The notes beneath the pieces were generated by a model. It searched no databases, was not told the origin of the DNA, and saw nothing but the letters and a program-made list of their open reading frames with translations. A program made the translations under genes and the position numbers. This document shows, piece by piece, positions 38,686 through 55,674 of a stretch of DNA of 59,921 nucleotides (its first letter is position 1; each line of letters begins with the position of its first letter). This DNA is from Qipengyuania sp. (GTDB lineage Bacteria; Pseudomonadota; Alphaproteobacteria; Sphingomonadales; Sphingomonadaceae). The stretch lies in contig JAIETR010000038.1 of the NCBI GenBank assembly GCA_019745075.1, positions 1 through 59,921 on the forward strand, given 5' to 3'.

Positions 38686-41010
38686 TTAGTGCGCCCCGGC
38701 CGCGAAGAGGTGGCGTTGGATATCGAGGAACGCGGTACGGATTTCGCCGGTCGAACCGAGCCGGCCTTTCGCGTCGTTTATGCTTCCATATCGGCTGCGA
38801 ATGAAATGGCTGAGGCGTTGGGGATCTAGTTCGCGCACACCATCTTTCACGTACGAGCTCAGCACATAGTCGAGAAACTTGCGCATCTCGTCCTCATAGC
38901 CGTCCATTCCAGTCGACTTCGCCGTTTCCGCACGCTCTGCCCGCGCCAGTGGTGCAAGCGTGAAGCGGATGTAGCCGAGCACGTCGAAGATGTCCGAGTT
39001 CGGCGCGTCGATCAGGCGGCGCATGTCGGACAGACGCTCGCGGTCGTAGCCCATCTCCACCAGACGCTGCAGGAACGCGTTGCGGCGATCGGGGTCGCTC
39101 CAGATCCCGCGTAGCTCGTCCTCGGTGGTCACCAGCGTGCCCAAGTCGCCGAAGAGGTGCTCCATGAACTCCTGCGCGGTGATTGGGCGACCGTTGAACA
39201 TGTAGGTCGTGGCGGCGAGGTAGCGGATCTTCCGCTCCTTCCCGTCGGCCAGCTTTACCACGATTTTCTCGGTGGGCTCCGTTGGTTCGATAGGGTCATC
39301 GGGATCGTCCGGCCTATCGGGCCCACCAGGTCCAGGAGGCTTGGGCCTCGGCTCGGCCGGATCCTCTGGTTCGCCGTCCCACTCGGGATCGTTGAAATGC
39401 TCGTAGGCTTTCACGAAGTCGTAGATCGTGAAGAAGTCCTTCCCGTCGAAGGTGCGGGTGCCGCGCCCGATAATCTGCTTGAACTCGATCATCGAGTTGA
39501 TCGGCCGCAGCAGCACAATGTTGCGCACATTGCGTGCGTCCACGCCCGTCGACAGCTTCTGCGATGTCGTTAGGATGGTTGGCAGCGTCTTCTCGTTATC
39601 CTGGAATTCGCGCAGGTGCTGCTCGCCCAGCTTGCCATCGTCGGCAGTCACCCGCTCGCAGTAGTGCGGGTCGGGATTGTCCTTGATCTGGTTGATGAAG
39701 TTGCGGACGCGGGCGGCGTGGTCCTGCGTGGCGCAGAAGACGAGCGTCTTCTGACGCTGGTCGATTTGGTCCATGAACTCTTGCACCCGGCTCATCTCGC
39801 GCTCGTCGATGATGAGCTTGGTGTTGAAGTCGGCTTCCTTGTATTCCTTGTCCGGGTCGATATCGCCCGACAGAACCTCGTCCTCATCGCTGAAGGTATA
39901 GGTGTCCATGGTGCTCGCCATCTGACGCACCTTGAACGGGGTAAGGAAGCCGTCGCCGATGCCTTCCTTCAGCGCATAGGTGTAAACCGGCTCGCCGAAA
40001 TACTTGTAGGTGTCGGCGTTGACGTCGCGCTTGGGCGTAGCAGTCAGACCGAGCTGCACCGCAGGCGAAAAATATTCGAGGATCGCGCGCCACGTGCTTT
40101 CGTCCCGCGCGCCGCCGCGGTGGCATTCGTCGATCACGATGAAGTCGAAGAAATCTTTCGCATAGCCTTCGAATGTGAACTCGGTCTCTCCGTCCTTCCC
40201 ACCGGTCATGAAGGTCTGGAAGATCGTGAAGAAGATGTTGGCATTGGTGGGCACGCCGCCCCGTTTGCGCACTTCGTCGGGGTCGATGCGGCACAGCGCG
40301 TCGGGCGGGAAGGCGCTAAAGGCGTTGTAGGCCTGGTCGGCAAGGATGTTGCGATCGGCGAGGAACAGGATACGCGGGCGGCGGGTCGGCTCGCGGGTCA
40401 GGTTCCAACGCGACTGGAACAGCTTCCACGCGATCTGGAACGCAATCGACGTCTTGCCCGTGCCCGTGGCAAGCGTCAGCAGGATGCGCTGCTGATCCTT
40501 GGCGATCGCCTCGAGCACGGCAGTGATCGCGTTGTGCTGGTAATAGCGCGGCTGCCACTTGCCGCCGCCAGTCTCGAAGGGAACCGCGCCGAAGCGTTCG
40601 CGCCATGCATTTCCGGTTGGGAAGCAGCGGTGCCACAGCTCGTCGGGCGTCGGGAAAGGCGGAGCGATGGCCCCCTCCTTGCCCGTGTGCATGTCGACCT
40701 GATACCACTCGGTCCCGTCGGATGCGTAGGCGAAGCGGGCTTTCAGCCGGCTCGAATAGTCCTTGGCCTGACCGACGCCCGCGCCTGCGCCCTTGCCGTG
40801 GCGCTTGGCCTCCATCGTTGCGAGCTTGTGGCCGCGATATTCGAGGACGTAGTCGGCTGAGAGGGGAGCTCCGCGCTGACCGCCGGGCATGATCCGGCCG
40901 GGGCAGATCGCCTCCCGCCGGATATGCGCGCCCTCGACCACACCCCAGCCGGCCGCGCGCAGCACGGGATCGATGCGATTGGCGCGGGTATCGGCTTCGG
41001 TTTCCTGCAT
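38686..41010 (-). CDS. hsdR: Type I restriction enzyme R subunit (HsdR)
   Basis: This 774-residue subunit cleaves DNA after translocation. The N-terminal nuclease domain shows Asp53 and the EAK motif (Glu67, Lys69). Helicase motif I ATGTGKTSIAF has Lys186, motif II is DECH at 294-297, motif III is TATPKR, and motif VI lies in QIIGRGTR. An acidic, Pro-rich linker (EPRPKPPGPGGPDRPDDPDD) precedes the C-terminal domain that binds the methyltransferase. The layout is EcoEI-like. It starts four bases after hsdS. Confidence 0.95.
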   Translation of the reverse strand: MQETEADTRANRIDPVLRAAGWGVVEGAHIRREAICPGRIMPGGQRGAPLSADYVLEYRGHKLATMEAKRHGKGAGAGVGQAKDYSSRLKARFAYASDGTEWYQVDMHTGKEGAIAPPFPTPDELWHRCFPTGNAWRERFGAVPFETGGGKWQPRYYQHNAITAVLEAIAKDQQRILLTLATGTGKTSIAFQIAWKLFQSRWNLTREPTRRPRILFLADRNILADQAYNAFSAFPPDALCRIDPDEVRKRGGVPTNANIFFTIFQTFMTGGKDGETEFTFEGYAKDFFDFIVIDECHRGGARDESTWRAILEYFSPAVQLGLTATPKRDVNADTYKYFGEPVYTYALKEGIGDGFLTPFKVRQMASTMDTYTFSDEDEVLSGDIDPDKEYKEADFNTKLIIDEREMSRVQEFMDQIDQRQKTLVFCATQDHAARVRNFINQIKDNPDPHYCERVTADDGKLGEQHLREFQDNEKTLPTILTTSQKLSTGVDARNVRNIVLLRPINSMIEFKQIIGRGTRTFDGKDFFTIYDFVKAYEHFNDPEWDGEPEDPAEPRPKPPGPGGPDRPDDPDDPIEPTEPTEKIVVKLADGKERKIRYLAATTYMFNGRPITAQEFMEHLFGDLGTLVTTEDELRGIWSDPDRRNAFLQRLVEMGYDRERLSDMRRLIDAPNSDIFDVLGYIRFTLAPLARAERAETAKSTGMDGYEDEMRKFLDYVLSSYVKDGVRELDPQRLSHFIRSRYGSINDAKGRLGSTGEIRTAFLDIQRHLFAAGAH

Positions 41011-41014
41011 CGGC

Positions 41015-42253
41015 TCAGGTCAGCTCCCCGGAGAAGGCCTGCTGTAACAAGGCTTGGCGAAGCGATGCGAGGTCATCGAGCTTCGCCTGATAGTCACCGA
41101 TCAAACGCTCCGCACGATCATGAAGCTGCCGCACTTCCGCCTTCGCCTTTCGCTGAATGTCCAAGCTGGGTCGGACAAATTTCAGCTCGCGCACATCCTT
41201 GATGTTTATCTGCATCAAGGCCGCGCCATAGGTCTTCTTAGCGATCTGCTTCCGCATGAAGGGCGAGCGCATCTGAAAATAGGCGAATTCGAGGTCGACT
41301 TTAGCAGGATCGAACCTCACCGGGACAATGCCTCTGGTAACGTTCGCCCCCGCCAGTTCGGGTGATGCCATCGAGACTTCGCCGGTTGTGCCTCGCACGC
41401 ACAGCAGCAGTTCTGCACCCGTCAGCTTGGTGCGTGAAAAACCATCAGCCCGATCAGATGATATACGCTTCAGGCCGGCCAGTGAAATGATCGGACGGCC
41501 AAGGTCGACCGGACGAACAATGGGTAATCCGCTAGCGACATCGTCACCAGGTTGAACGATGCCGTATGAAAGCTTGCAATCAGGATGGACGGCTTCGCCA
41601 AGAGGCAAGATCAGATCGGATGACGCAAACTGCTCGAAAACTGCTTCGAGGGTGTTCTCAAACAACTCTTCCGCATCCCCCAAATTGGCTTCGGCGAGGG
41701 CACGGGCGCGGTCGAGTGCGGCGAAGGCCTGATCCAGCACCGCAACAATCCGCTTCTGCTCCTCCAGCGGGGGGATCGGAACGGCGAGCTTGCCTAGGTC
41801 ACTGAATTTCAGGTTATTGATGTTTGCGCCGTCCGAGAGGCTGTCGATGAAATCATCGTAAAGCGACGACCGCGTCACATAGAACAGGTATCGCGGATCG
41901 AGCCCTGGGTTCGGGATGAGGAGGCCCATGAACCCGCCAAATGCGAAATCCAGCGCCTCTTCGATGAGAGCGACCTTGCCGAGGTGAGATTTGCTTCCGC
42001 TTGCAGTGCAGATAAGCAGACTTCCCGCGCGAACTTTCAGCCGGTCATGCACCTCAACGTCATCACGGATGTATCGGATCTCTTCGAGGTTCAGCATGCC
42101 GGTTAGGCGGTCGATGTTGTTGGCCCGCAAAACAGCGTTGCCCGAGAATGGAACTTCATCGGACTTTTTATAGGTAAGCCCCCGCTGGAATTGGACCCAT
42201 TCAGCTAATGGCCGCGTTTCCCAACCCAAATTCTTCACAGAGTGTGCCGTCAC
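41015..42253 (-). CDS. hsdS: Type I restriction specificity subunit (HsdS)
   Basis: This 412-residue protein chooses the DNA target. It has two target-recognition domains: the first begins WETRPLAEWVQFQRGLTYKK, the second runs over ILPLGEAVHPDCKLSYGIVQ. Each is followed by a conserved helix (PIPPLEEQKRIVAVLDQAFAALDRARAL, and DIQRKAKAEVRQLHDRAERLIGDYQAKL). The GTG at 42253 overlaps the hsdM stop (GTGA). The two domains differ, so the target is bipartite and asymmetric. Confidence 0.93.
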   Translation of the reverse strand: MTAHSVKNLGWETRPLAEWVQFQRGLTYKKSDEVPFSGNAVLRANNIDRLTGMLNLEEIRYIRDDVEVHDRLKVRAGSLLICTASGSKSHLGKVALIEEALDFAFGGFMGLLIPNPGLDPRYLFYVTRSSLYDDFIDSLSDGANINNLKFSDLGKLAVPIPPLEEQKRIVAVLDQAFAALDRARALAEANLGDAEELFENTLEAVFEQFASSDLILPLGEAVHPDCKLSYGIVQPGDDVASGLPIVRPVDLGRPIISLAGLKRISSDRADGFSRTKLTGAELLLCVRGTTGEVSMASPELAGANVTRGIVPVRFDPAKVDLEFAYFQMRSPFMRKQIAKKTYGAALMQINIKDVRELKFVRPSLDIQRKAKAEVRQLHDRAERLIGDYQAKLDDLASLRQALLQQAFSGELT

Positions 42254-43701
42254 AGCATCCCCCGAATTTCTGCGAGGATCTGCCGGGTCTCCTCGTCGCG
42301 TGCGAGTATGTCGGCGATGATCTGCTCGGGCGCGCGCAGCGGCGCTTCCTTCGGCGTGGTGGGGTTGCGGACCGAAAGGTCCCACGTCGCCTTGTCGAGA
42401 TCGTCGACGCTTACCGCCCAGCTCTTGGCGCTGTCCACCTTATCCGGCTGGTGCGAGACGAACTCGGCAAGGTCTGCATCGTTCAGCGCATTGGTCTTGC
42501 CGAGCGAGCGGCCCGGATCGAGCTGGCAATACCATACCTGCCGCGTGGGTGCGCCCTTCTCGAAGAACAGCACCACCGTCTTCACGCCCGCGCCCTGGAA
42601 CGTGCCGCCGGGGCAATCTAGCACGGTGTGGAGGTTGCAACTGGTCAGCAGTTCCTTGCGCAACTCAACGCTGGCGTTGTCGGTGTTGCTGAGGAAGGTG
42701 TTCTTGATCACCACCGCCCCACGCCCGCCCGCCTTCAGCTTGCGGATGAAGTGCTGCAGGAAGAGATAGGCGGTCTCCCCCGACTTGATCGGGAAGTTCT
42801 GCTGCACCTCCTTGCGCTCACCCCCGCCGAAGGGCGGGTTGGCCAGCACGATGTCGTGACGGTCAGCCTGCTGGATGTCCATCACGTTCTCGGTGAGCGT
42901 GTTGGTGTGGCGGATTTGTGGCGCCTCTATGCCGTGCAGGATCATGTTCATGACGCCCAGCACGTAAGCGAGCGACTTCTTCTCCTGTCCGTAGAACGTG
43001 CGTTGTTGGAGCGCCTCCCACTCCTCGCCGGAGAGGTCCGGGCGGCGCAGGTGATCCCACGCCTCGCACAGAAACCCTGCCGACCCGCAAGCGCCGTCGT
43101 AGATCGTCTCGCCGATCTTGGGATCGACGACCTTGATCATCGCGCGGATCAGCGGACGCGGCGTGTAATACTCGCCTCCGTTGCGCCCGGCATTGCCCAT
43201 GCGCTTGATGCGGGTCTCGTAGAGGTCAGACAGCTCGTGCTTGGCGTCGGTGCTGCCGAAGTCGAGCGTGTCGATGATGTCGATCACCTCGCGCAGCGAA
43301 TAGCCCGACCGGAACCGGTTTGCGAGCTCGGAGAAGATCTCGCCAACCTTGTACTCCAGCGTGTCGGCATCGGCATCGCTGGTGTTGAAGGTCTTGAGGT
43401 AAGGGAAGAGCTTGCCGTTGACGAAGTCGATCAGGTCCTGCCCGGTCTTCGCGGCGTTGTGGTCGAGCGCGCCGTTGGCATCCTTCGGTGCGGCCCAGGT
43501 CTGCCAACGATAGGCCTCTTCCAGGATTGGCGTGTAGTCGCGACCCTCCAGCTCGGCCTGATCCTGCCGCTCCTGCTCAAGATCGTCGAGATACTTGAGG
43601 AACAGGAGCCAGCTGGTCTGCTCGGCGTAATCCAGTTCCGACGACAGGCCCTCGTCATTGCGCATGGCCCGATCGATATTGTTGAACGCGTTCTCGAACA
43701 T
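42250..43701 (-). CDS. hsdM: Type I DNA adenine methyltransferase subunit (HsdM)
   Basis: This 483-residue N6-adenine methyltransferase has an N-terminal helical domain (residues 1-160), the SAM motif DGACGSAGFL at 202-211, and catalytic NPPF at 288-291. With HsdS it modifies host DNA, and with HsdR it forms the restriction complex. First gene of hsdM-hsdS-hsdR; ATG 43701 follows GAGGGGC. The frame extends 17 codons upstream without homology. Confidence 0.95.
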   Translation of the reverse strand: MFENAFNNIDRAMRNDEGLSSELDYAEQTSWLLFLKYLDDLEQERQDQAELEGRDYTPILEEAYRWQTWAAPKDANGALDHNAAKTGQDLIDFVNGKLFPYLKTFNTSDADADTLEYKVGEIFSELANRFRSGYSLREVIDIIDTLDFGSTDAKHELSDLYETRIKRMGNAGRNGGEYYTPRPLIRAMIKVVDPKIGETIYDGACGSAGFLCEAWDHLRRPDLSGEEWEALQQRTFYGQEKKSLAYVLGVMNMILHGIEAPQIRHTNTLTENVMDIQQADRHDIVLANPPFGGGERKEVQQNFPIKSGETAYLFLQHFIRKLKAGGRGAVVIKNTFLSNTDNASVELRKELLTSCNLHTVLDCPGGTFQGAGVKTVVLFFEKGAPTRQVWYCQLDPGRSLGKTNALNDADLAEFVSHQPDKVDSAKSWAVSVDDLDKATWDLSVRNPTTPKEAPLRAPEQIIADILARDEETRQILAEIRGML

Positions 43702-43835
43702 TGATGCCCCTCGTTGGGTGCCATGCCTATGGGGCGCAACTGGCAGCGGCAAGCCTGATCATCCGCCTCGCGCGCGCGAGTCAGTTTTTTCGTCGGAGCC
43801 TTTGGGCTGCCCAGAATTTCATTCTAAAATGAGGA

Positions 43836-45377: not shown

Positions 45378-45619
45378 TCATCAGGATCTCGCAACATGTC
45401 CATCGTAAGGCTGGTATCGCCGTTCCTCTTCGCACGCAGGACGCAGGCCAAAGGACCGCTCAGCCGTATTCGCATTTGGTGTGCAGCTCCCAGCCGATTG
45501 ATCACATTACGACGGCGAAGCTGCTGCAAGATACCGAACACCAGTTAAATTTGGCGAGCCCCGTTTCGAAGCCGGTATCGTCACGGGGAATCGCAAAACG
45601 GCGTGTCGACCGATGGTGA
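45374..45619 (+). CDS. Small protein coupled between the accessory and relaxase genes (81 aa)
   Basis: ATG 45374 overlaps the upstream stop (ATGA) and the stop at 45617-45619 overlaps the relaxase start at 45613. The first 19 residues, MIIRISQHVHRKAGIAVPL, resemble the relaxase N-terminus MVINIWQYADLQTGIAAPS at 8 of 19 positions (M, I, I, Q, G, I, A, P). The rest is basic with no recognised domain. It may be a decayed or regulatory duplicate of the relaxase start, or a genuine small protein. Confidence 0.45.
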   Translation: MIIRISQHVHRKAGIAVPLRTQDAGQRTAQPYSHLVCSSQPIDHITTAKLLQDTEHQLNLASPVSKPVSSRGIAKRRVDRW

Positions 45620-48255
45620 TTAACATCTGGCAGTATGCCGATCTCCAGACCGGAATCGCCGCTCCGTCGCTCAAGCAACAGCTTGCCTATTCGACCGCGC
45701 TGTCGAGGGCCCGCTACATCTTCGACATGCAGCTGAGTGACCGGGACGTTCAGGTCATGCTTCGGGTGAAACCGGTTGGCGACTACATTCACAAAGATGG
45801 GCACCGCGCGGAGCGGATCACGGGTCGCTATGCCTACAATCTGCCGTCCGACGAACCGGAAGGATGGTCGGAGGATATGGCCATCCAGGGCGCGGCCGGC
45901 GGTCTCGACCGTTTCTGGCATATCGTGGTCAGCAGCCGTGAGGGAGAGGATCTTACTGAGGAGCAACTTGCACATGTTCGCAAGGTTGTGCTCGACGTCC
46001 TTGGGATAGCGAGATGCCCGTCAATTTGGGCAACACACGGCGACACGAAAACGCAGCATTCCCATGGGCTAGTGTCTAGTTTCTTGGCCCAGTCCGATGA
46101 ACGCGTCACTTTCGGTCAAGGCTGGTGGAAGGAGGCCGGGCAGATCGCCATGGCTATCATCGAGCGCGATTTGGGTCTCGATCCCGAACCTAACCGCCGG
46201 TTCGTCGCCGACCGCACGGGTGTCTACTCCACCTTCACCGATATGAAGGTTGCCGACGAGCACGGGCGAATTATCGATCGTGCAGCCATCACCGCCATGC
46301 ACAAGGCGCACGACAAGTGGAGAGCGCAAAATTACGCGTCGGAAGGCCAGGAGCCCGGGGGCGAATGGGACCTCGCGCGAGCGGTGAAGCAGATTGCTGC
46401 GCAGCGCATCCAATTGGCAGATACACCTGAAGAAATGCATGAAAGCTTGGCCCGCGTAGGACTGCGATATGTGGCGAGCGCGACAGGTGCTTGGCTTGTC
46501 GCGAATGACTTTCGACCCGGCTCGGGCAAGAATGCTGGGGGACAATCCATTGCTGCCGGCAAAGCCTACGCGAACGCTGCTCTCGGCAAATTGAACGACA
46601 GATTCAAGAAGGTCGGCGGATATCGGCCAGCTGCCCCTTCTCTTTACGTCAGGCCATTCGTGATGCCGCGGTTCAACAAGCTGGATGGGGAATCGGCGCG
46701 GACCTATGCCGAGCATCAGGCCGAAATCGAAGAGGCGGACGCGCTCCTTCAGCACCTCAACATTGACAATGGCGAGTCCTACCGACGTCGTCGCGATAAA
46801 CTGAAGGGGGCGGGGGCCAATGCGGCCCACCAAGCGCGGAAATTAGACCATCAGGATGAAATCGCAGCCGCATTGACACTCAGGGATGAACTGAACGTCA
46901 AGTCGAGCGACATCAAAGGGGGCACGCAACAGGCGCCGGGAGACGCAGACCATCAAACAGTGGCGCTCATTTGGGGGCCTCCTCCGGGTAAGCCCAACGC
47001 CAAAAAGCAGGAACGGTCGGAGGCTGACCGACGTGACATAGAAGCACGGTACCACATTGAACGCAGCAATCGCGAAGCCCGCTACTGGCTCGACGGCCAT
47101 CTCGCTTTCATCGAGCGTCGGCGCACGATCGAACTCGTAACCCGCAAGCGCCGTGCTCTGATCGACGCCCTGAAAATTGCCCGTGACAAGTTTCGCGCAA
47201 TCCGGGTTGCTGCAAGGCATCGCATTAGAGCGAGCATGGCGCGCATCGCGAGTGAACTTCGCCTCCGCATCCACGCCGGTTGGCTGAACAAGATCGGGCG
47301 CCAGCACCGGGAATTGCTGGCTGAGGGCAAAGCCGAAAGTATCGTTGACAGGTCGATGCGCTATCACGCGACCGCACCGGATCGTATCAACGCTCGCGGG
47401 CGTGCCCGGTCTCAGAGATTACACGCTCAACAGGGGCTTGAGACTCCGAATGGCCCTACCGAGGGGCTGGGTGCGGATGGACTTGTCGCCCGTTATCTCA
47501 GCGCAGACGACCGCAGGACGATGGCTGGCAATGCGGAGAGGGACCGCGCCACCCGCGATGCGCTGGAAATCATCATCACGGAAATTGATCACGACAGCCT
47601 TGCGCTCGCGTCCTCCCGGCAAACCTACTCGGCTTTGAATTCACCGATCAGGTATTTGGATGATGCGCGCCTCATCCAGTCCATGGGCGGTTCTCCGGAG
47701 CTGCTGGTCGATGCGGACATCCAGCGGGCGCTGCGCGCTAGTGAATTGCTCCAACTTGAAAAGCGTCGCTGGGTGGCCGGCGCTATCGCGTCCGGCCACG
47801 CTACGCTCGAAGAAGGTCGGGTCTCTGTTAGTGGCCACCCGGGTCATTGGGCGGAGCGATACTGGGAAGCGCAGCGGCACGACCCATCGTTTTTGCGCCT
47901 TGTCCACGTTGCCAGGGCCCGGCCAGAAGGGTTTCCCTTTGATCATGATGCGACACCGGAGACGAGGGCGATGGAGGCCGCAAAGCGCGATGGCGATTGG
48001 AAGCTACAATGGTTTCTCGCTGGGGTCGTCCAACGGACATCGCCATTCGCGCTCATTGCAAAGGCGCGACGGGAAGCGGCGGGTGTGAACACGCGGGCTG
48101 TGTCGAATGCCTCGTCGCAAGCCGCTCCGGAGCGGGAGTCGACGCGGCCCTCTGAAATTGAAGTGCCAACGCGCGCACCTGATCCCACAATGCCCTCACA
48201 TCGTGACAGGCCGAACCAAGCTCCATCGCATGATATTGGCAGTCCACAGCGATGA
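45613..48255 (+). CDS. Relaxase/mobilization nuclease
   Basis: This 880-residue protein probably nicks the transfer origin and pilots the strand. The N-terminal region carries FWHIVVSSREGED and the metal-binding set ATHGDTKTQHSHGLV (His142, Asp144, His149, His151), like VirD2/MobA-type relaxases with the pattern HxDTxxxHxH. The catalytic tyrosine is likely Tyr26 or Tyr35. The long C-terminal part is highly charged and helical (about residues 480-640), with no helicase or primase motif seen. No coupling protein or T4SS lies in the window. Confidence 0.78.
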   Translation: MVINIWQYADLQTGIAAPSLKQQLAYSTALSRARYIFDMQLSDRDVQVMLRVKPVGDYIHKDGHRAERITGRYAYNLPSDEPEGWSEDMAIQGAAGGLDRFWHIVVSSREGEDLTEEQLAHVRKVVLDVLGIARCPSIWATHGDTKTQHSHGLVSSFLAQSDERVTFGQGWWKEAGQIAMAIIERDLGLDPEPNRRFVADRTGVYSTFTDMKVADEHGRIIDRAAITAMHKAHDKWRAQNYASEGQEPGGEWDLARAVKQIAAQRIQLADTPEEMHESLARVGLRYVASATGAWLVANDFRPGSGKNAGGQSIAAGKAYANAALGKLNDRFKKVGGYRPAAPSLYVRPFVMPRFNKLDGESARTYAEHQAEIEEADALLQHLNIDNGESYRRRRDKLKGAGANAAHQARKLDHQDEIAAALTLRDELNVKSSDIKGGTQQAPGDADHQTVALIWGPPPGKPNAKKQERSEADRRDIEARYHIERSNREARYWLDGHLAFIERRRTIELVTRKRRALIDALKIARDKFRAIRVAARHRIRASMARIASELRLRIHAGWLNKIGRQHRELLAEGKAESIVDRSMRYHATAPDRINARGRARSQRLHAQQGLETPNGPTEGLGADGLVARYLSADDRRTMAGNAERDRATRDALEIIITEIDHDSLALASSRQTYSALNSPIRYLDDARLIQSMGGSPELLVDADIQRALRASELLQLEKRRWVAGAIASGHATLEEGRVSVSGHPGHWAERYWEAQRHDPSFLRLVHVARARPEGFPFDHDATPETRAMEAAKRDGDWKLQWFLAGVVQRTSPFALIAKARREAAGVNTRAVSNASSQAAPERESTRPSEIEVPTRAPDPTMPSHRDRPNQAPSHDIGSPQR

Positions 48256-49326: not shown

Positions 49327-49484
49327 GCATTGCGGCAGAAAGAGCGACCGCGCCTCGCGGGCGAATTGATTGAGGAACTGCAGAGAAAGTGACGGGCCGG
49401 GCGGGAACCGGCCTGAGAGAGGAAAAAAGGGGTTGCGAGAGCGCTCCCCGCCTCGCCGGTTCCGTCAACGACGGAGTACCTGAC

Positions 49485-50375
49485 ATGCATACCGACCACC
49501 TGCCGCCGAACAGCGAACGGCTCGCTCACTGCCTCGAGCGCGACCTTCGCTATCGCGTCCTGCGCGAAATCCCCAAACCCTACTCGATGATGCCCCAACA
49601 GGGCGCGCCGCCCGAAGGCAGGTGCATGGCCATCGTCGACCTGGAGACCACGGGCCTCGACCCGACCGAGGACGCGATCATCGAGATCGCGATCCTGCTC
49701 GCATTCGTGGACGAAGACGGCGCAATCCTCGGCCACTTCGGACCTTTGTCCTGGACCGAGGAGCCGGAGGTGCCGCTGTCGCCGGAGATCACCATGATCA
49801 CGGGGCTGACTGCGCAGGCCTTGGCGGGCACGAGCATCCCCGACAAGCAGGTAATGGGATTGCTGTCGCGCGCTGACTTGCTGGTCAGCCACAATGCGGC
49901 GTTCGAGATCGGATTTCTCGAGCGGCGTTACCCCGACCTCAAGGGTAAGGCCTGGGCGTGTTCGTGTAAGGACATTCCGTGGCTCAAGCTCGGCCTCGAC
50001 GGGCGCGGCCAAGGGCACCTCCTGATGCAGCATGGCTGGATGTCGTCGGCGCATCGCGCTGGGCCCGATGTGTGGGCCCTGTTCGTGCTCCTGAACGAGG
50101 CGCGGACCGGTTGGCTCAAGGGCCCGAAGCGCACGCATCTCCAGCGCCTGCTCGGGGCCGCGGATCGGACGACCACGATGGTCGAGGCGCGGGGCGCGCC
50201 GTACTCCAAAAAGGAACAGCTCCGAGCTCGCGGATATCGCTGGAATGCTCGCGAGAAATTCTGGGAGAAGGAGCTGGAGCCCCACCAGGTCGAGCATGAA
50301 GAAGCCTGGCACTACCGCAGCGGCCTTCGGACACCGTCGCTGCGCGCCATAACCGCCCACGAGCGGCACCGCTGA
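49485..50375 (+). CDS. Predicted 3'-5' exonuclease (DnaQ-like)
   Basis: This 296-residue DEDD nuclease has Exo I VDLETTG (Asp52, Glu54), Exo II VSHNAAFE (His136-Glu141, with Glu where Asp is usual) and Exo III HRAGPD (His190, Asp195). Such enzymes remove nucleotides from DNA or RNA 3' ends. The N-terminal 45 residues and the C-terminal tail (SKKEQLRARGYRWNAREKFW) are added parts; the latter resembles a small domain seen at the end of plasmid exonucleases. ATG 49485 is chosen; an earlier in-frame GTG lacks support. Confidence 0.82.
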   Translation: MHTDHLPPNSERLAHCLERDLRYRVLREIPKPYSMMPQQGAPPEGRCMAIVDLETTGLDPTEDAIIEIAILLAFVDEDGAILGHFGPLSWTEEPEVPLSPEITMITGLTAQALAGTSIPDKQVMGLLSRADLLVSHNAAFEIGFLERRYPDLKGKAWACSCKDIPWLKLGLDGRGQGHLLMQHGWMSSAHRAGPDVWALFVLLNEARTGWLKGPKRTHLQRLLGAADRTTTMVEARGAPYSKKEQLRARGYRWNAREKFWEKELEPHQVEHEEAWHYRSGLRTPSLRAITAHERHR

Positions 50376-50473: not shown

Positions 50474-51358
50474 ATGATCATCACCACCGAACCTGACGGC
50501 GCGAGCGACGCCTTCGAGCTCGCGCTCCACCGTTCCATGCGCAGCTTCCTGACCGCCAAGCAGGACGGCGTCCCGAGCTCGCGGCGCTACATTGTCTACG
50601 ACGCCGAATACAGCTGGGACCGCGCAGCCCACGACGCTTACAAGGTGACCGAGGGCAAGGACGCGGAACAGGATACGCGCTGGCCGTTCCACCGCATCGC
50701 GGCGGTCTCGTGGCTGACGCTGACATTCCATTCCGGCGAGGCGATCCCGACGGTTGGCGATTCCATCGTCATGACTGCCGAGGATACGAGCGAGGAGGAG
50801 ATGGTCGCGGCATTCTTCGATGCGCTGAAGCTGATACCGAGCGCGAGGCTCGTCACATGGGGCGGCGAAGTAAAGGACCTCGCGGTCCTCCGGCGCTGCG
50901 CAGCGAGTTACGATCGGCTGCTGCCGCCACAGCTTTTCGACCTCTCACCCTACGCGCAGGAGCGGCTTGACCTGTGCAGCGAGGTGTCGGTCCGTGCGAA
51001 GCCGGTTCACCTTCCCGAGTATGCCATGGCGGTCGGCGTGCCAGCGAAGCCGAGTCCGTCCAAATCCATTGGCGCCCTGGTCGAGAATGGTCGCTGGCCC
51101 GAAGTGCGGGACCAGGTCCTCGCTGACGTGCTGGCCACGGCCATGCTCGCGATCCGGCACCTCACCTCGCGTGGCGAGATCACCTGCAACCGCCACGACA
51201 CCCAGCTGGCGATCGCGGAGGCGGCATCCACCGCTCTGCCAGCGAGCGCATTCGTGAAGCGCGCTTTCCTACCGTGGGCGCGCGGACAGAAGGCCCGCGC
51301 AAGCCTGAAGGGCGCCGTGTTCCGGTGCGAGGAGCCGCTGGTCCGACGGTCGGCCTGA
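50474..51358 (+). CDS. Predicted PolB-type 3'-5' exonuclease
   Basis: This 294-residue protein has a DxE motif in YIVYDAEYSW (Asp43, Glu45), then LVTWGGEVKDLAVLRR and FDLSPYA, which together look like the exonuclease fold of predicted 3'-5' exonuclease PF10108 (DNA_pol_B_exo2). No polymerase domain is present. The remaining acidic ligand may be Asp124 or so in KSIGALVENGRWPEVRDQVLADVLAT. It follows the other exonuclease gene by 98 bp in the same direction. Confidence 0.65.
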   Translation: MIITTEPDGASDAFELALHRSMRSFLTAKQDGVPSSRRYIVYDAEYSWDRAAHDAYKVTEGKDAEQDTRWPFHRIAAVSWLTLTFHSGEAIPTVGDSIVMTAEDTSEEEMVAAFFDALKLIPSARLVTWGGEVKDLAVLRRCAASYDRLLPPQLFDLSPYAQERLDLCSEVSVRAKPVHLPEYAMAVGVPAKPSPSKSIGALVENGRWPEVRDQVLADVLATAMLAIRHLTSRGEITCNRHDTQLAIAEAASTALPASAFVKRAFLPWARGQKARASLKGAVFRCEEPLVRRSA

Positions 51359-51543: not shown

Positions 51544-52230
51544 ATGACCAAGAAGAAGACCGCCGGCACTACGCTGCCCGCCCGCACGACCGCGGCGAAG
51601 AACCTGCCGCTCCCGCGATCGTATCCGCTCGCTGGGACCGCCATCCAGCCCACGCAGATCATCGCCATTCCCGATCGCCACCCGCGCGGTCAGGGACCGT
51701 GGACCGACGAGCCCGATCGGATCGCGTGGCGCGATGCCAAGACCGGGCTCGACTGCCTCGTCCTGCGTCAGGCTGACGGCACCATGAGCGGCTATGTGGC
51801 GGTGCCGCCGTCGCATCCGCTATCTGGCTACAGGTACGATGCGGTGCCCGCGGAGATCAGGTCCACTCCGCACCGCGGTCTGCACTATAGCGCCGCATGC
51901 AGCCGGCGAGGCCCCGAGGCCATCAGCATCTGCCACATCGATGTCGTGCCGCAGGGTCGCGCGGCACCAACCCTCGAGCATATGTCCGAAGGCGCCGACG
52001 CCTGGTGGTTCGGGTTCGATACGGACCACCCGGGCGACTTGGTGCCGAAGGGCCCCGCGCCCAATCTCCACCGTGAGGAAGGCGAGGTCTATCGCGACCT
52101 CAACTACGTCGCCGCTGAGACGATCAAGCTCGCCGCGGCGCTCAAGGCGCTCGACCCGGCCGGGGTGCCGATCGAACCATCCGCTCCCCTGTCGCTCGGT
52201 GCGCCTTTGCCGCGCCTCGGCAAGTCGTGA
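51544..52230 (+). CDS. Conserved phage/plasmid protein of unknown function
   Basis: This 228-residue protein has a basic disordered N-terminus and a region TDEPDRIAWRDAKTGLDCLV, GYVAVPPSHPLSG, HRGLHYSAAC, then WWFGFDTDHPGDLVP and YRDLNYVAAETIKLAAAL. This series of motifs (H-x-G-L-x-Y, then WWFGFDxxHxGDxVP) recurs in actinophage and plasmid proteins of unknown role (memory). The conserved His and Asp residues would suit a metal site. It overlaps the following gene's GTG frame. Confidence 0.65.
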   Translation: MTKKKTAGTTLPARTTAAKNLPLPRSYPLAGTAIQPTQIIAIPDRHPRGQGPWTDEPDRIAWRDAKTGLDCLVLRQADGTMSGYVAVPPSHPLSGYRYDAVPAEIRSTPHRGLHYSAACSRRGPEAISICHIDVVPQGRAAPTLEHMSEGADAWWFGFDTDHPGDLVPKGPAPNLHREEGEVYRDLNYVAAETIKLAAALKALDPAGVPIEPSAPLSLGAPLPRLGKS

Positions 52231-52241
52231 GGGAGGCGGCC

Positions 52242-53042
52242 ATGACCCAGAAACCGATCCCTTACGAACGGCGGCGCAATCCCAACTTGCCCTGGGGCTA
52301 CTGGTGCGTCGCCCAGGAAGGCAAGTCCGGCATCCGAGACGAGTTCGGCGAGGAGTGGGGAAGCTTACGGTCCTACCTGTGGTTCTCCCGGCTCGGCATG
52401 GGCGGCTCGAGCAACTATGGCCTGGAGGCGCAGCTCGAGCTGCTCCTTGCCGTGCTTGCAGCGCTGGCGCGCGGCGTGGTGGCGGTCGAGGGCCTCGCCA
52501 AGGACCTGTTCCTCGGCGGGTGGGAAGCGACCCGGCACTACGAGTGCTGGTTGGTCGGCCACAAGCTCGTCAAGAACGGCTTGTCGGGTGGCCTGACGCC
52601 AGAAGGTCATGCGATCCTGGTTATGCTCGCCTCGACGCGCAGTGCGCAGTCAGCTGCCGTCCCGATCGGCCTCCCGACCATCGCACCGGCACGCGGGCTG
52701 GACTGGGGTGAGACGCGTGACGAGCGCGAGCGCGTGTTCGCGGCCAACGAGGCGTTCGCGCAGGGCCTCCCCAACAGGTTCGAGCGCGTCGAGGCTATCG
52801 ACCAGCCGGGGATCCGGCTCGTCGGCTATCCCGAAGGGCCCAACGTCCCGATGGCGCGCGTCCTCTGGTCGCTCGCCTTCCGCGAGGACCACGATCGCGA
52901 CCGGTTCTACGCCTGGCTCATGAACCGCATCGACCGCTGGGAGGCCTGGGCCGACATGGCGCGGCGCCAAGGGGCGCAGCAGCTGTTCGAACACCTGCTG
53001 CAGTTGGCGCATGCCGATCGGCCTGCGCTCGCGACCGACTAG
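52242..53042 (+). CDS. Hypothetical protein (266 aa)
   Basis: ATG 52242 with GGGAGG seven to twelve bases before it is preferred over the GTG at 52227. The sequence starts MTQKPIPYERRRNPNLPWGYW; conserved-looking parts include LFLGGWEATRHYECWLVGHKLVKNGLSGGLTPEGHAIL and FREDHDRDRFYAWLMNRIDRWEAW. No motif is recognised. It lies in the mobile block and is co-oriented with its neighbours, ending 80 bp before the next gene. Confidence 0.6.
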   Translation: MTQKPIPYERRRNPNLPWGYWCVAQEGKSGIRDEFGEEWGSLRSYLWFSRLGMGGSSNYGLEAQLELLLAVLAALARGVVAVEGLAKDLFLGGWEATRHYECWLVGHKLVKNGLSGGLTPEGHAILVMLASTRSAQSAAVPIGLPTIAPARGLDWGETRDERERVFAANEAFAQGLPNRFERVEAIDQPGIRLVGYPEGPNVPMARVLWSLAFREDHDRDRFYAWLMNRIDRWEAWADMARRQGAQQLFEHLLQLAHADRPALATD

Positions 53043-53723: not shown

Positions 53724-53890
53724 GCAGGTACATTCGCCACCGGAGAACGCCGCGCACGCCCTAGTCCCGCCCCGCCGGCAGCGCACCGACAATCAGGAAT
53801 CGCTCGCGTTTACTTGTCGTTAGCGAGCCAGAGCCTACATCAGGGGCAGAGCGTGTCCATATCGCCCGCCACCGTGCGGGAGATTTCGAA

Positions 53891-54007
53891 GCCTTATGTG
53901 GGCGTTCAGCTGAGAGTGGCTTGATCCGCCGGCGTCCCCGTGAACTCTGAACGACAGGAGGGGTACGCCTTGCGCGCACCAACTTTGGCGTTCGGCCCAC
54001 ATAAGGC
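53891..54007. promoter_or_regulatory. Distant 13-bp inverted repeat upstream of the methyltransferase fusion gene
   Basis: GCCTTATGTGGGC (53891-53903) and GCCCACATAAGGC (53995-54007) are perfect inverted copies 91 bp apart, the second ending nine bases before the ATG at 54016. Inside lie GTTCAGCTGAGAGT and AACTCTGAAC, a near-inverted pair. With an HTH protein as the product, an autoregulatory operator or loop is plausible. AGGAGGGG at 53957-53964 may be unrelated. Confidence 0.5.
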
Positions 54008-54015
54008 TGAAATCG

Positions 54016-55674
54016 ATGAAATCGACAACCATCGCGAAGGCGTGCGCGTCCGCCACGCTCACCTGCACCGCACCTGTTCCCTTCGACCTGCTGAGCGAGC
54101 TGAAGGCGGAGCGAGAAGCTCATGGCATCTCCCAGGCCGAGCTTGCGGCACGGATGGGGTGCACTCAATTCGAGATTCATGCAGTCGAATGCGGCTATGG
54201 CCGTTTCGAGATCCTCGTGCGGATGATGGACGCCCTACACGTCGATCTGACTAAGATCGCGTCCGGGACATTCCTGCACCTTCGCCTGAAGAAAACCCGG
54301 GAGAAAACGCGCCGTTGGACTGTCGTGAGGCTCGCGGAAAAGTCGGGCCTGCCCATCCACGTCATCGAGAACCTCGAGCTCGGCTTCGGCCTGGTGCGAG
54401 ACTTTCTCCACGTTCTCCGCATCCTCGCGCCGAAATACAACAGGCGCGGAGGCAAAGGCGGCAAAGGAGAGGACAAGGATAGTTGCTTCACCCACCCGTT
54501 GACGGTCACGGCGCTGAAGACTTCGTTCGGCCGGATCACCTTCGATCCCTGCGCGCATCGTCTCAGCCCGGTGAAGCCCGTGAACGGCTGCTATTTCGAA
54601 CGGGGTCAGGATGGCCTAGCTACGCCATGGGAGGGTCGCTTCGTTTTCATGAACCCTCCGTTCTCCAGGCTGACCGCGTGGACGACCTACGCGCTCGAGC
54701 AGTGGAGGGGGGGCAAGATCAAACTCCTTGCTTGCCTGATACCGACCCGGACCGACACGCTGTTCTTCATCGAGGCTCTGCTGGCCGGAGCCGCGGTCTT
54801 CTTCTTCGGCAATCGGCTGAAGTTCAAGAAGCCTGATGGTACGATCGAGGCATCCAAGATCACGACGATGCTGGTCGTCTTCGGGTCCAACCCCAAGCAG
54901 CGCGCGCAATTCGGAAAGCAGCAGGAAGGGGTATGGGTGAAGCTTGCCGCCGGGCCGGGCGGGAAGACCACGCTTCGGGAAGCACCGGAAGCTGCTTCCT
55001 CCCCGGATAAGCGCCGTGAACAAAATTCTCGGACATCATGTCCGAATTCCGCCGCTTCGGCGCATGCGGAAGAGAAAGCGTGGGCATGTCCCGATAAAGC
55101 CCCATGTCCGATCATGCAGGAGCTCGAGGCCGAGTTTCGAAATCCACATGGGCTGCGGCAGTGTGCCGAGTATTACGGCCGACGCTGCCAGACTGACCCG
55201 GACGACCTCCTGAGTACGGCTATTGAACGAGCGTTGAGGCGGCCCCAGTGGGATAGGGGTGTGCGTGAGCGGATCGAGAGCATTCTGTCGTCCATCGCAT
55301 CGACGATCAATCGTGCGCGGGCTCGGGCGAAGTTTCGCGGAACCGATCTGATTTCGCTCGACGACGGCACGATCGTCGACCGCCAGTTTCCATGCTTGCA
55401 TGATCCTGCCGAAGCCGCCGAGATGGAGTCCCGGCGCCGAGGGAGCGAGAAGGCGCTGGACATGATCGCCAGGGGTGAGCCGAAGTTGCGTGCCCTGATC
55501 AATGGCATCGGCCTCGGGCTGAGGGGCAAGCACCTGCAAATCAATATGGGCGTCACCGAACTCCAACTCGCGACGTTACGTCGGCGGCTCAAGCGTTCGG
55601 CTCAGGTCGTTTGCGCGCCACTATGTTCGGGAGGCTGCATCGAAGCGGATCGGCTGGTTGAGTTAGTCTCGTGA
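54016..55674 (+). CDS. Two-XRE-HTH / phage-type DNA N6-adenine methyltransferase / sigma-70-like fusion protein
   Basis: This 552-residue ORF is uninterrupted. Residues 24-80 form an XRE helix-turn-helix (LKAEREAHGISQAELAARMG), and residues 84-140 a second (LKKTREKTRRWTVVRLAEKSG). Residues 158-290 match phage DNA N6-adenine methyltransferases (Dam, PF05869): FTHPLTVTALKTSFG, ITFDPCA, DGLATPWEGRFVFMNPPFS with catalytic NPPF at 213-216, then IPTRTDTLFFIEAL. Residues 292-365 are a polar linker. Residues 366-530 resemble sigma-70-type regions of small sphingomonad proteins (QTDPDDLLSTAIERALRRPQWDRGVRERIESILSSI, split here as two stretches) and end in a helix-turn-helix (MGVTELQLATLRRRLKR). Domain joins are read from sequence and recall. 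Confidence 0.72.
   Translation: MKSTTIAKACASATLTCTAPVPFDLLSELKAEREAHGISQAELAARMGCTQFEIHAVECGYGRFEILVRMMDALHVDLTKIASGTFLHLRLKKTREKTRRWTVVRLAEKSGLPIHVIENLELGFGLVRDFLHVLRILAPKYNRRGGKGGKGEDKDSCFTHPLTVTALKTSFGRITFDPCAHRLSPVKPVNGCYFERGQDGLATPWEGRFVFMNPPFSRLTAWTTYALEQWRGGKIKLLACLIPTRTDTLFFIEALLAGAAVFFFGNRLKFKKPDGTIEASKITTMLVVFGSNPKQRAQFGKQQEGVWVKLAAGPGGKTTLREAPEAASSPDKRREQNSRTSCPNSAASAHAEEKAWACPDKAPCPIMQELEAEFRNPHGLRQCAEYYGRRCQTDPDDLLSTAIERALRRPQWDRGVRERIESILSSIASTINRARARAKFRGTDLISLDDGTIVDRQFPCLHDPAEAAEMESRRRGSEKALDMIARGEPKLRALINGIGLGLRGKHLQINMGVTELQLATLRRRLKRSAQVVCAPLCSGGCIEADRLVELVS

Follow-up and report, generated by a model that had tools for sequence, protein, structure and literature searches.

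A rare fusion of an XRE–XRE–Dam-type methyltransferase to a sigma-like region in a putatively mobilizable element of Qipengyuania sp.

What might a mobile element gain from a single protein that combines DNA-binding domains, an adenine methyltransferase and a region resembling a sigma factor? The question is raised by a 552-aa open reading frame (ORF) of Qipengyuania sp., in which two XRE helix-turn-helix (HTH) domains, a Dam-type N6-adenine methyltransferase and a C-terminal sigma-like region follow one another. The window analysed here is the whole 59,921-base contig on which the gene lies, part of a draft genome of 82 contigs and 3.02 Mb. We find that the fusion is real and rare, and its product is best supported as an element-encoded regulator-modifier. 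The gene and its parts are:

54016-55674, + strand: fusion gene, 552 aa, ATG start; XRE HTH, XRE HTH, Dam-type N6-adenine methyltransferase, linker, sigma2/sigma4-like region
54094-54252, + strand: first XRE HTH, residues 27-79; HTH_31 and HTH_3 above cut-off, 434 repressor match
54274-54444, + strand: probable second XRE HTH, residues 87-143; fusion-profile match to DdrOC
54442-54945, + strand: Dam-type methyltransferase domain, residues 143-310
54652-54663, + strand: catalytic NPPF of the Dam domain, residues 213-216
54946-55095, + strand: linker, residues 311-360; low model confidence
55096-55362, + strand: sigma2-like domain, residues 361-449
55393-55653, + strand: sigma4-like domain, residues 460-546

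The three-part architecture had been proposed in a preliminary description made from the sequence alone, and it was borne out by Pfam, PHROG and profile matches and by four full-length relatives with the same order. The first HTH passed the Pfam cut-offs for HTH_31 (29.9 bits, cut-off 27, residues 27-78) and HTH_3 (25.4 bits, cut-off 23, residues 29-79), and the 434 repressor was matched at residues 27-63 by a profile of five fusions. The second HTH of the window protein is sub-threshold in Pfam (HTH_25, 12 bits against a cut-off of 24.6); here the five-fusion profile matched the XRE structure DdrOC at residues 87-143 (E 8e-4), and an unfused relative, P0005, has two HTH_3-scoring stretches, the best for the second copy spanning 84-121. 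The methyltransferase domain scored 34.4 bits with Dam (PF05869, curated cut-off 28.1, residues 153-274) and matched the PHROG family phrog_111, ‘DNA methyltransferase’, at residues 142-359 (E 1.6e-24). Its motif residues are N213, P214, P215, F216 and S217, with D177 upstream; in an alignment of 20 rows, NPP[FYW] is present in 18/18 rows covering the motif and the Asp in 18/19. Foldseek with the full-length model listed mostly methyltransferases, none reaching E ≤ 0.001. Phage-type Dam proteins of PF05869 and phrog_111, which are orphan methyltransferases, share the catalytic domain with its DPC and NPPF motifs, whereas the window protein adds two XRE HTHs before it and the sigma-like region after it.

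The sigma-like C-terminus was what the preliminary description itself had called its weakest point. Profile, profile–profile and structure comparisons now support a distant two-domain (sigma2 plus sigma4) protein resembling extracytoplasmic function (ECF) sigma factors; a confident match to a non-sigma family, which the same description had envisaged, did not materialise, and the matches go to sigma factors. Taken alone, the C-terminal 184 aa of the window protein matched no Pfam family at E ≤ 10. Among members of the C-terminus family, Sigma70_r2 was most often matched (9/26 at E ≤ 1, best E 0.0014). Searched against PDB sequences up to E 10, the C-terminal profile had two matches only, both to ECF sigma factors (a SigH/E chimera, E 0.022; SigH, E 0.51). 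Profile–profile comparison with ECF sigmas of related genomes was co-linear across 116 columns (E 1.6e-5, probability 79), against E 0.26 for a reversed profile and E 0.2-0.64 for four other element families used as controls. The structure model of the C-terminus had a predicted local distance difference test score (pLDDT) of 84.5, and in its comparison 50/50 VIA rows were entries of sigma factors or RNA polymerase complexes, the matched chain being taken as the sigma subunit from entry titles and chain letters. The model contains predicted sigma2- and sigma4-like folds, in that order and with a short linker between them, as in ECF (group IV) sigma factors such as SigH, SigL and RpoE/EcfG. We call the C-terminus sigma-like and do not file it as an ECF member because the window protein has no Pfam match to Sigma70_r2 or Sigma70_r4_2.

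Four full-length fused relatives, all from other records, retain the order HTH–HTH–Dam–sigma-like: P0001 (552 aa, 92% identity), P0002 (548 aa, 59%), P0003 (544 aa, 51%) and P0004 (536 aa, 51%). Since these share the three-part order, the fusion is not a mis-assembly of genes that lie side by side elsewhere, a possibility raised in the preliminary description, and no adjacent split genes were present in the stretches read. Searches with the fusion profile covered overlapping sets of genomes from the family (397), the order (396), the genus (60) and the class (385), and recovered the fusion only in its own genome; three first-look candidates were scored per genome for family, order and class, and weak relatives may therefore be missed. 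Scans of a genome-contig collection, and of a viral-contig collection with the window protein, P0009 and P0002-P0004, returned no relative. Plasmid and phage collections held distant Dam domains only (2 and 3 records, respectively), and the plasmid collection no sigma-like match.

In related genomes the parts occur as separate genes, one encoding HTH–HTH–Dam and the other a sigma-like protein (mostly 200-250 aa). The unfused HTH–HTH–Dam proteins (P0005, G042, G205, G009 and others) have the same three N-terminal domains (28-37% identity for the genome loci, 56% for P0005), but stop after the methyltransferase and have no sigma-like part. They were found in 8/397 family genomes against 1/397 for the fusion, so two HTHs before a Dam domain are not the oddity that they had first seemed; the sigma-like part is the sole exceptional, new element.

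The genes upstream place the fusion in a conserved module, all on the + strand:

45613-48255, + strand: MobA/VirD2-type relaxase with LPD7 domain (profile match)
gene 48442, upstream, + strand, same direction: weak coiled-coil matches only
49389-50375, + strand: DnaQ/RNase T-type exonuclease (PF00929; Pfam), exoT; same module
50474-51358, + strand: PolB-like 3'-5' exonuclease (PF10108; Pfam, synteny), exo2
51544-52230, + strand: conserved module gene, no Pfam match; syntenic in G009, G314, G051 and G638
52227-53042, + strand: conserved module gene, no Pfam family above cut-off; syntenic in G009, G314, G051 and G638
gene 53123, upstream of the fusion gene, + strand, same direction

The relaxase with its LPD7 domain suggests that the element is mobilizable. 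Every stand-alone sigma-like locus with a score of 130 bits or more (16/16) has a relative of exo2 upstream of it on the same strand, broken into pieces at G638:C291; this count leaves out seven sigma-like matches of ≤34 bits, and four weaker relatives (63-109 bits) have no exo2 within the 0.3-1.5 kb of sequence around them. The exo2 and sigma-like gene pair may act as a functional unit in mobile elements of this kind. At G638:C234 the order is relaxase, exoT, exo2, 51544, 52227, sigma-like gene; in G009, which has the same module order as the window, it is exoT, exo2, 51544, 52227, HTH–HTH–Dam. The fused gene of the window occupies that slot, with one extra gene before it. The same slot is thus filled by a Dam gene or by a sigma-like gene, one example each. 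This is the best clue to the origin of the fusion and points to the joining of two slot-sharing genes. In the stretch read, no sigma-like gene accompanies the Dam gene of G009, G314 or G051, which all have the module, or that of G205, which has exoT and exo2. Beside the element, type I restriction-modification genes hsdR, hsdS and hsdM occupy 38686-43752 on the − strand; relatives of hsdR and hsdM (85-88% identity) adjoin the sigma-like gene in G549 and lie ~8-14 kb away from it in G285.

A search for the split parts as neighbours gave 0/16 separate Dam loci with a sigma-like gene in the stretch read, several of these stretches being cut by contig ends or by the length set for reading; the 16 include G638:C2, G624:C3, G624:C12 and G629:C5. 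A whole-genome search of G624 had no sigma-part match at E ≤ 1e-8, and the stretch of G624:C12 stops 0.6 kb past exo2. The sigma-like genes of G537 and G027 each have a weak Dam-like ORF at some distance, ~5 kb away (46 bits) and ~12 kb away (23 bits), respectively. Two Dam-type relatives are incomplete: that of G638:C2 (L151:8061-8978) is split into two ORF pieces, and that of G537 (L070:931-1356) is shortened to a 141-aa ORF. The window's own genome has a second, small Dam-type gene of 209 aa (G000:C4, L002:1366-1995), preceded by a gene that we take to be ParB-like from the look of its sequence. The sigma-like protein of G551, from the same family, is identical to P0024 (Novosphingobium beihaiensis per one source), which would put Novosphingobium in the host's family, among the sphingomonads.

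Two repeats could serve as regulatory sites. The first is the ‘distant inverted repeat’ of the preliminary description, which proved to have perfect arms:

53890-53903, + strand: left arm, 14-nt perfect
53995-54008, − strand: right arm, 14-nt perfect; ends 7 nt before the start codon

The arms are 91 nt apart, directly upstream of the fusion gene. No dinucleotide shuffle of the 316-nt upstream stretch reached an arm of 14 (0/300; longest 11), and 2/189 of the window's consecutive 316-nt stretches have an arm of at least 14. Exact matches to the 13-nt arm core in the host genome are these two sites alone, and none of 14 other Dam-type ORFs has a 14-nt arm near its start (longest 12). We consider the repeat a candidate operator.

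The second lies in the gene:

55009-55065, + strand: nested palindrome GCGCCG..TCGGACA-N3-TGTCCGA..CGGCGCAT, 57 bp, within the linker coding sequence

Counted over the fusion and the 16 stand-alone sigma-like genes of at least 130 bits, the palindrome (83 gap-free columns) sits at or just before the start of 7/16 stand-alone genes and in the fusion (8/17: the window, G027, G386, G533, G620, G549, G537 and G638:C234), and was not found at the other 9/17. Its cores are nearly invariant (TGCGCCG..TCGGACA-N3-TGTCCGA..CGGCGCA), and the inner core without mismatch occurs once in the host genome. Where present it encodes an RTSCPN..AH peptide, and other members have CPN..AH without the palindrome; in G549 and G537 it precedes the called sigma ORF and would read as a short leader frame. 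Folding z-scores ranged from -2.8 (window) to -9.4, and 65.4% of cells were paired, dropping to 31-42% with partners slid. A covarying RNA hairpin did not stand out (two-sided changes at 15 pairs against a shuffle mean of 13.2; score matched by 43/500 shuffles), and Rfam had no match. With invariant cores and covariation not clearly above shuffles, a DNA operator and an RNA hairpin are indistinguishable here.

What, then, does the protein do? Computed support covers the architecture, the four diverged relatives, the Dam motifs, the sigma2/sigma4-like folds and the shared module. We give an even chance to the reading that a mobilizable element has made one polypeptide from an XRE–XRE–Dam orphan methyltransferase and an ECF-type sigma-like protein, coupling DNA marking and transcription. 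The XRE domains would guide the methyltransferase to particular sites of the element, possibly the inverted repeat upstream of the fusion gene itself, and the Dam domain would methylate adenine there; the sigma-like part would engage RNA polymerase, or at least promoter DNA, so that genes of the element, those of the exonuclease/relaxase module for example, are transcribed. With the parts in one chain, a site's marking and its transcription would be linked, in line with the epigenetic transcription switch that the preliminary description suggested. A bolder version, which we think unlikely, is a sigma factor doubling as a sequence-targeted adenine methyltransferase: XRE domains would bind an operator, and the protein would mark it and recruit RNA polymerase there. 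Transcription of the element would then depend on how far its DNA is methylated on entry or during replication, and one protein would serve as an epigenetic timer of the transfer genes.

The main rival to coupled marking and transcription is that the sigma-like part has lost RNA polymerase binding and is only an extra DNA-binding or targeting module of an orphan methyltransferase, anti-restriction or regulatory, that has several DNA-binding domains and may repress its own gene. Region 2.2 of sigma factors carries a clamp-binding signature, D-L-x-Q, whose glutamine is important. The window protein departs from it, as it does from ECF sigma factors generally in its very distant sequence and in having an enzyme on its N-terminal side: it reads DDLLS, with S replacing Q, and the fused clade as a whole has serine where glutamine is typical. 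Over the 34 rows aligned, fused and unfused, the position is S in 16, Q in 11, H in 6 and N in 1. The change from Q to S in the fused clade weighs against engagement of RNA polymerase. The rival also draws on a PADLOC match to ‘orphan methyltransferase’ (E 8.9e-10), on the type I restriction system adjoining the element and on the unfused HTH–HTH–Dam genes, which manage without a sigma part. However, both sigma-like folds are retained in order, the family members P0023, P0024 and P0030 have the canonical DDLLQ-[ED] and are named sigma24 or sigma-70 by their sources, and the stand-alone forms lie downstream of exo2 at every counted locus, as a module regulator might. We regard a targeting module as possible, while leaning away from it.

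How the two parts came together bears on whether they act as one. The end of P0005 coincides with the end of the fusion's Dam part, and stand-alone sigma-like proteins of the nearest clade start MRR..K.RTSCPN..AH, a similar stretch lying at ~332-350 of the fusion; the fusion thus looks like two near-complete proteins joined through a short spacer. The linker is 80% identical to that of P0001 and the domains 92-95%, and a linker diverging faster than the domains fits the expectation for a real fusion. A tree of the sigma parts groups all five fusions with P0006 and P0007 in a single clade (90/90, short of the tool's star) whose sister group is made up of stand-alone proteins. P0006 and P0007, short proteins on contigs of ~2 kb, lie inside the fused clade, so that the fused label takes 3 changes and a single origin holds only if both are fragments or were split off later. 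The Dam tree puts the unfused P0005 among fused proteins, within an unresolved group (2 changes); its Dam domain is 61% identical to that of the window. The Dam domains of P0003 and P0004 are 39-41% identical to those of the window, P0001 and P0002, and their second HTHs 41/46% to that of the window, whereas compared with the window their first HTHs are 58/52% and sigma parts 68/72% identical. This part of the protein thus appears to have diverged faster or to have been exchanged with the architecture unchanged, and a strongly diverged methyltransferase before a similar sigma part in two fused relatives suggests that the architecture is maintained.

The same joint could mean that two proteins with unrelated jobs became one chain when a stop codon was lost but still act separately, whether through linker cleavage or through internal initiation, the fusion as such having no mechanistic role. 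Their end-to-end joining fits this, as does the linker, with pLDDT <50 at residues 311-361, and the start of the stand-alone proteins is still Met in P0001 and P0004, with Met367 retained in 4/5 fusions. But relatives as distant as 51% identity still have the fused frame, 3/5 no longer have Met at the stand-alone start (K in the window protein, E in P0002, V in P0003), Met367 is lost in P0002 and no candidate internal start is universal among the five; independent halves seem to us improbable. An assembly or annotation artefact is hardly credible, for although the host genome is a draft and no other genome searched has the fusion, P0001, at 92% identity over a protein of 552 aa, and three further full-length relatives (536-548 aa) are present in other records.

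Among known systems, structure 9n9q is an RNA-guided transcription complex in which a nuclease-dead Cas12f is partnered with an ECF sigma factor; there the proteins are separate and the guide is RNA, whereas the window's protein is a single chain that includes XRE domains and a methyltransferase. Some ECF sigma factors carry fused regulatory domains, and these resemble the fusion in having a sigma core plus an extra domain; in the portions of the sources available, the extensions described are SnoaL-type, anti-sigma, zinc-finger or membrane ones, not DNA methyltransferases (PMC8999054, PMC3426412, PMC7730460, PMC5826349), and the methyltransferase mentioned with ECF122 is a neighbouring gene, not fused (PMC8999054). 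A literature search, including PMC8999054, PMC12839542 and PMC7641849, turned up no methyltransferase–sigma fusion and no description of the sigma-like family of these elements that goes with exo2 and partly with the nested palindrome.

If coupled marking and transcription is the correct reading, the methyltransferase–sigma-like fusion would connect DNA marking physically and directly with promoter recognition; in bacteria the two are normally linked indirectly. The split relatives from the same module are natural controls, making the benefit of joining testable. The finding also highlights a family of sigma-like proteins on mobile elements whose genes lie downstream of an exonuclease gene and, in some members, begin at a nested palindrome.
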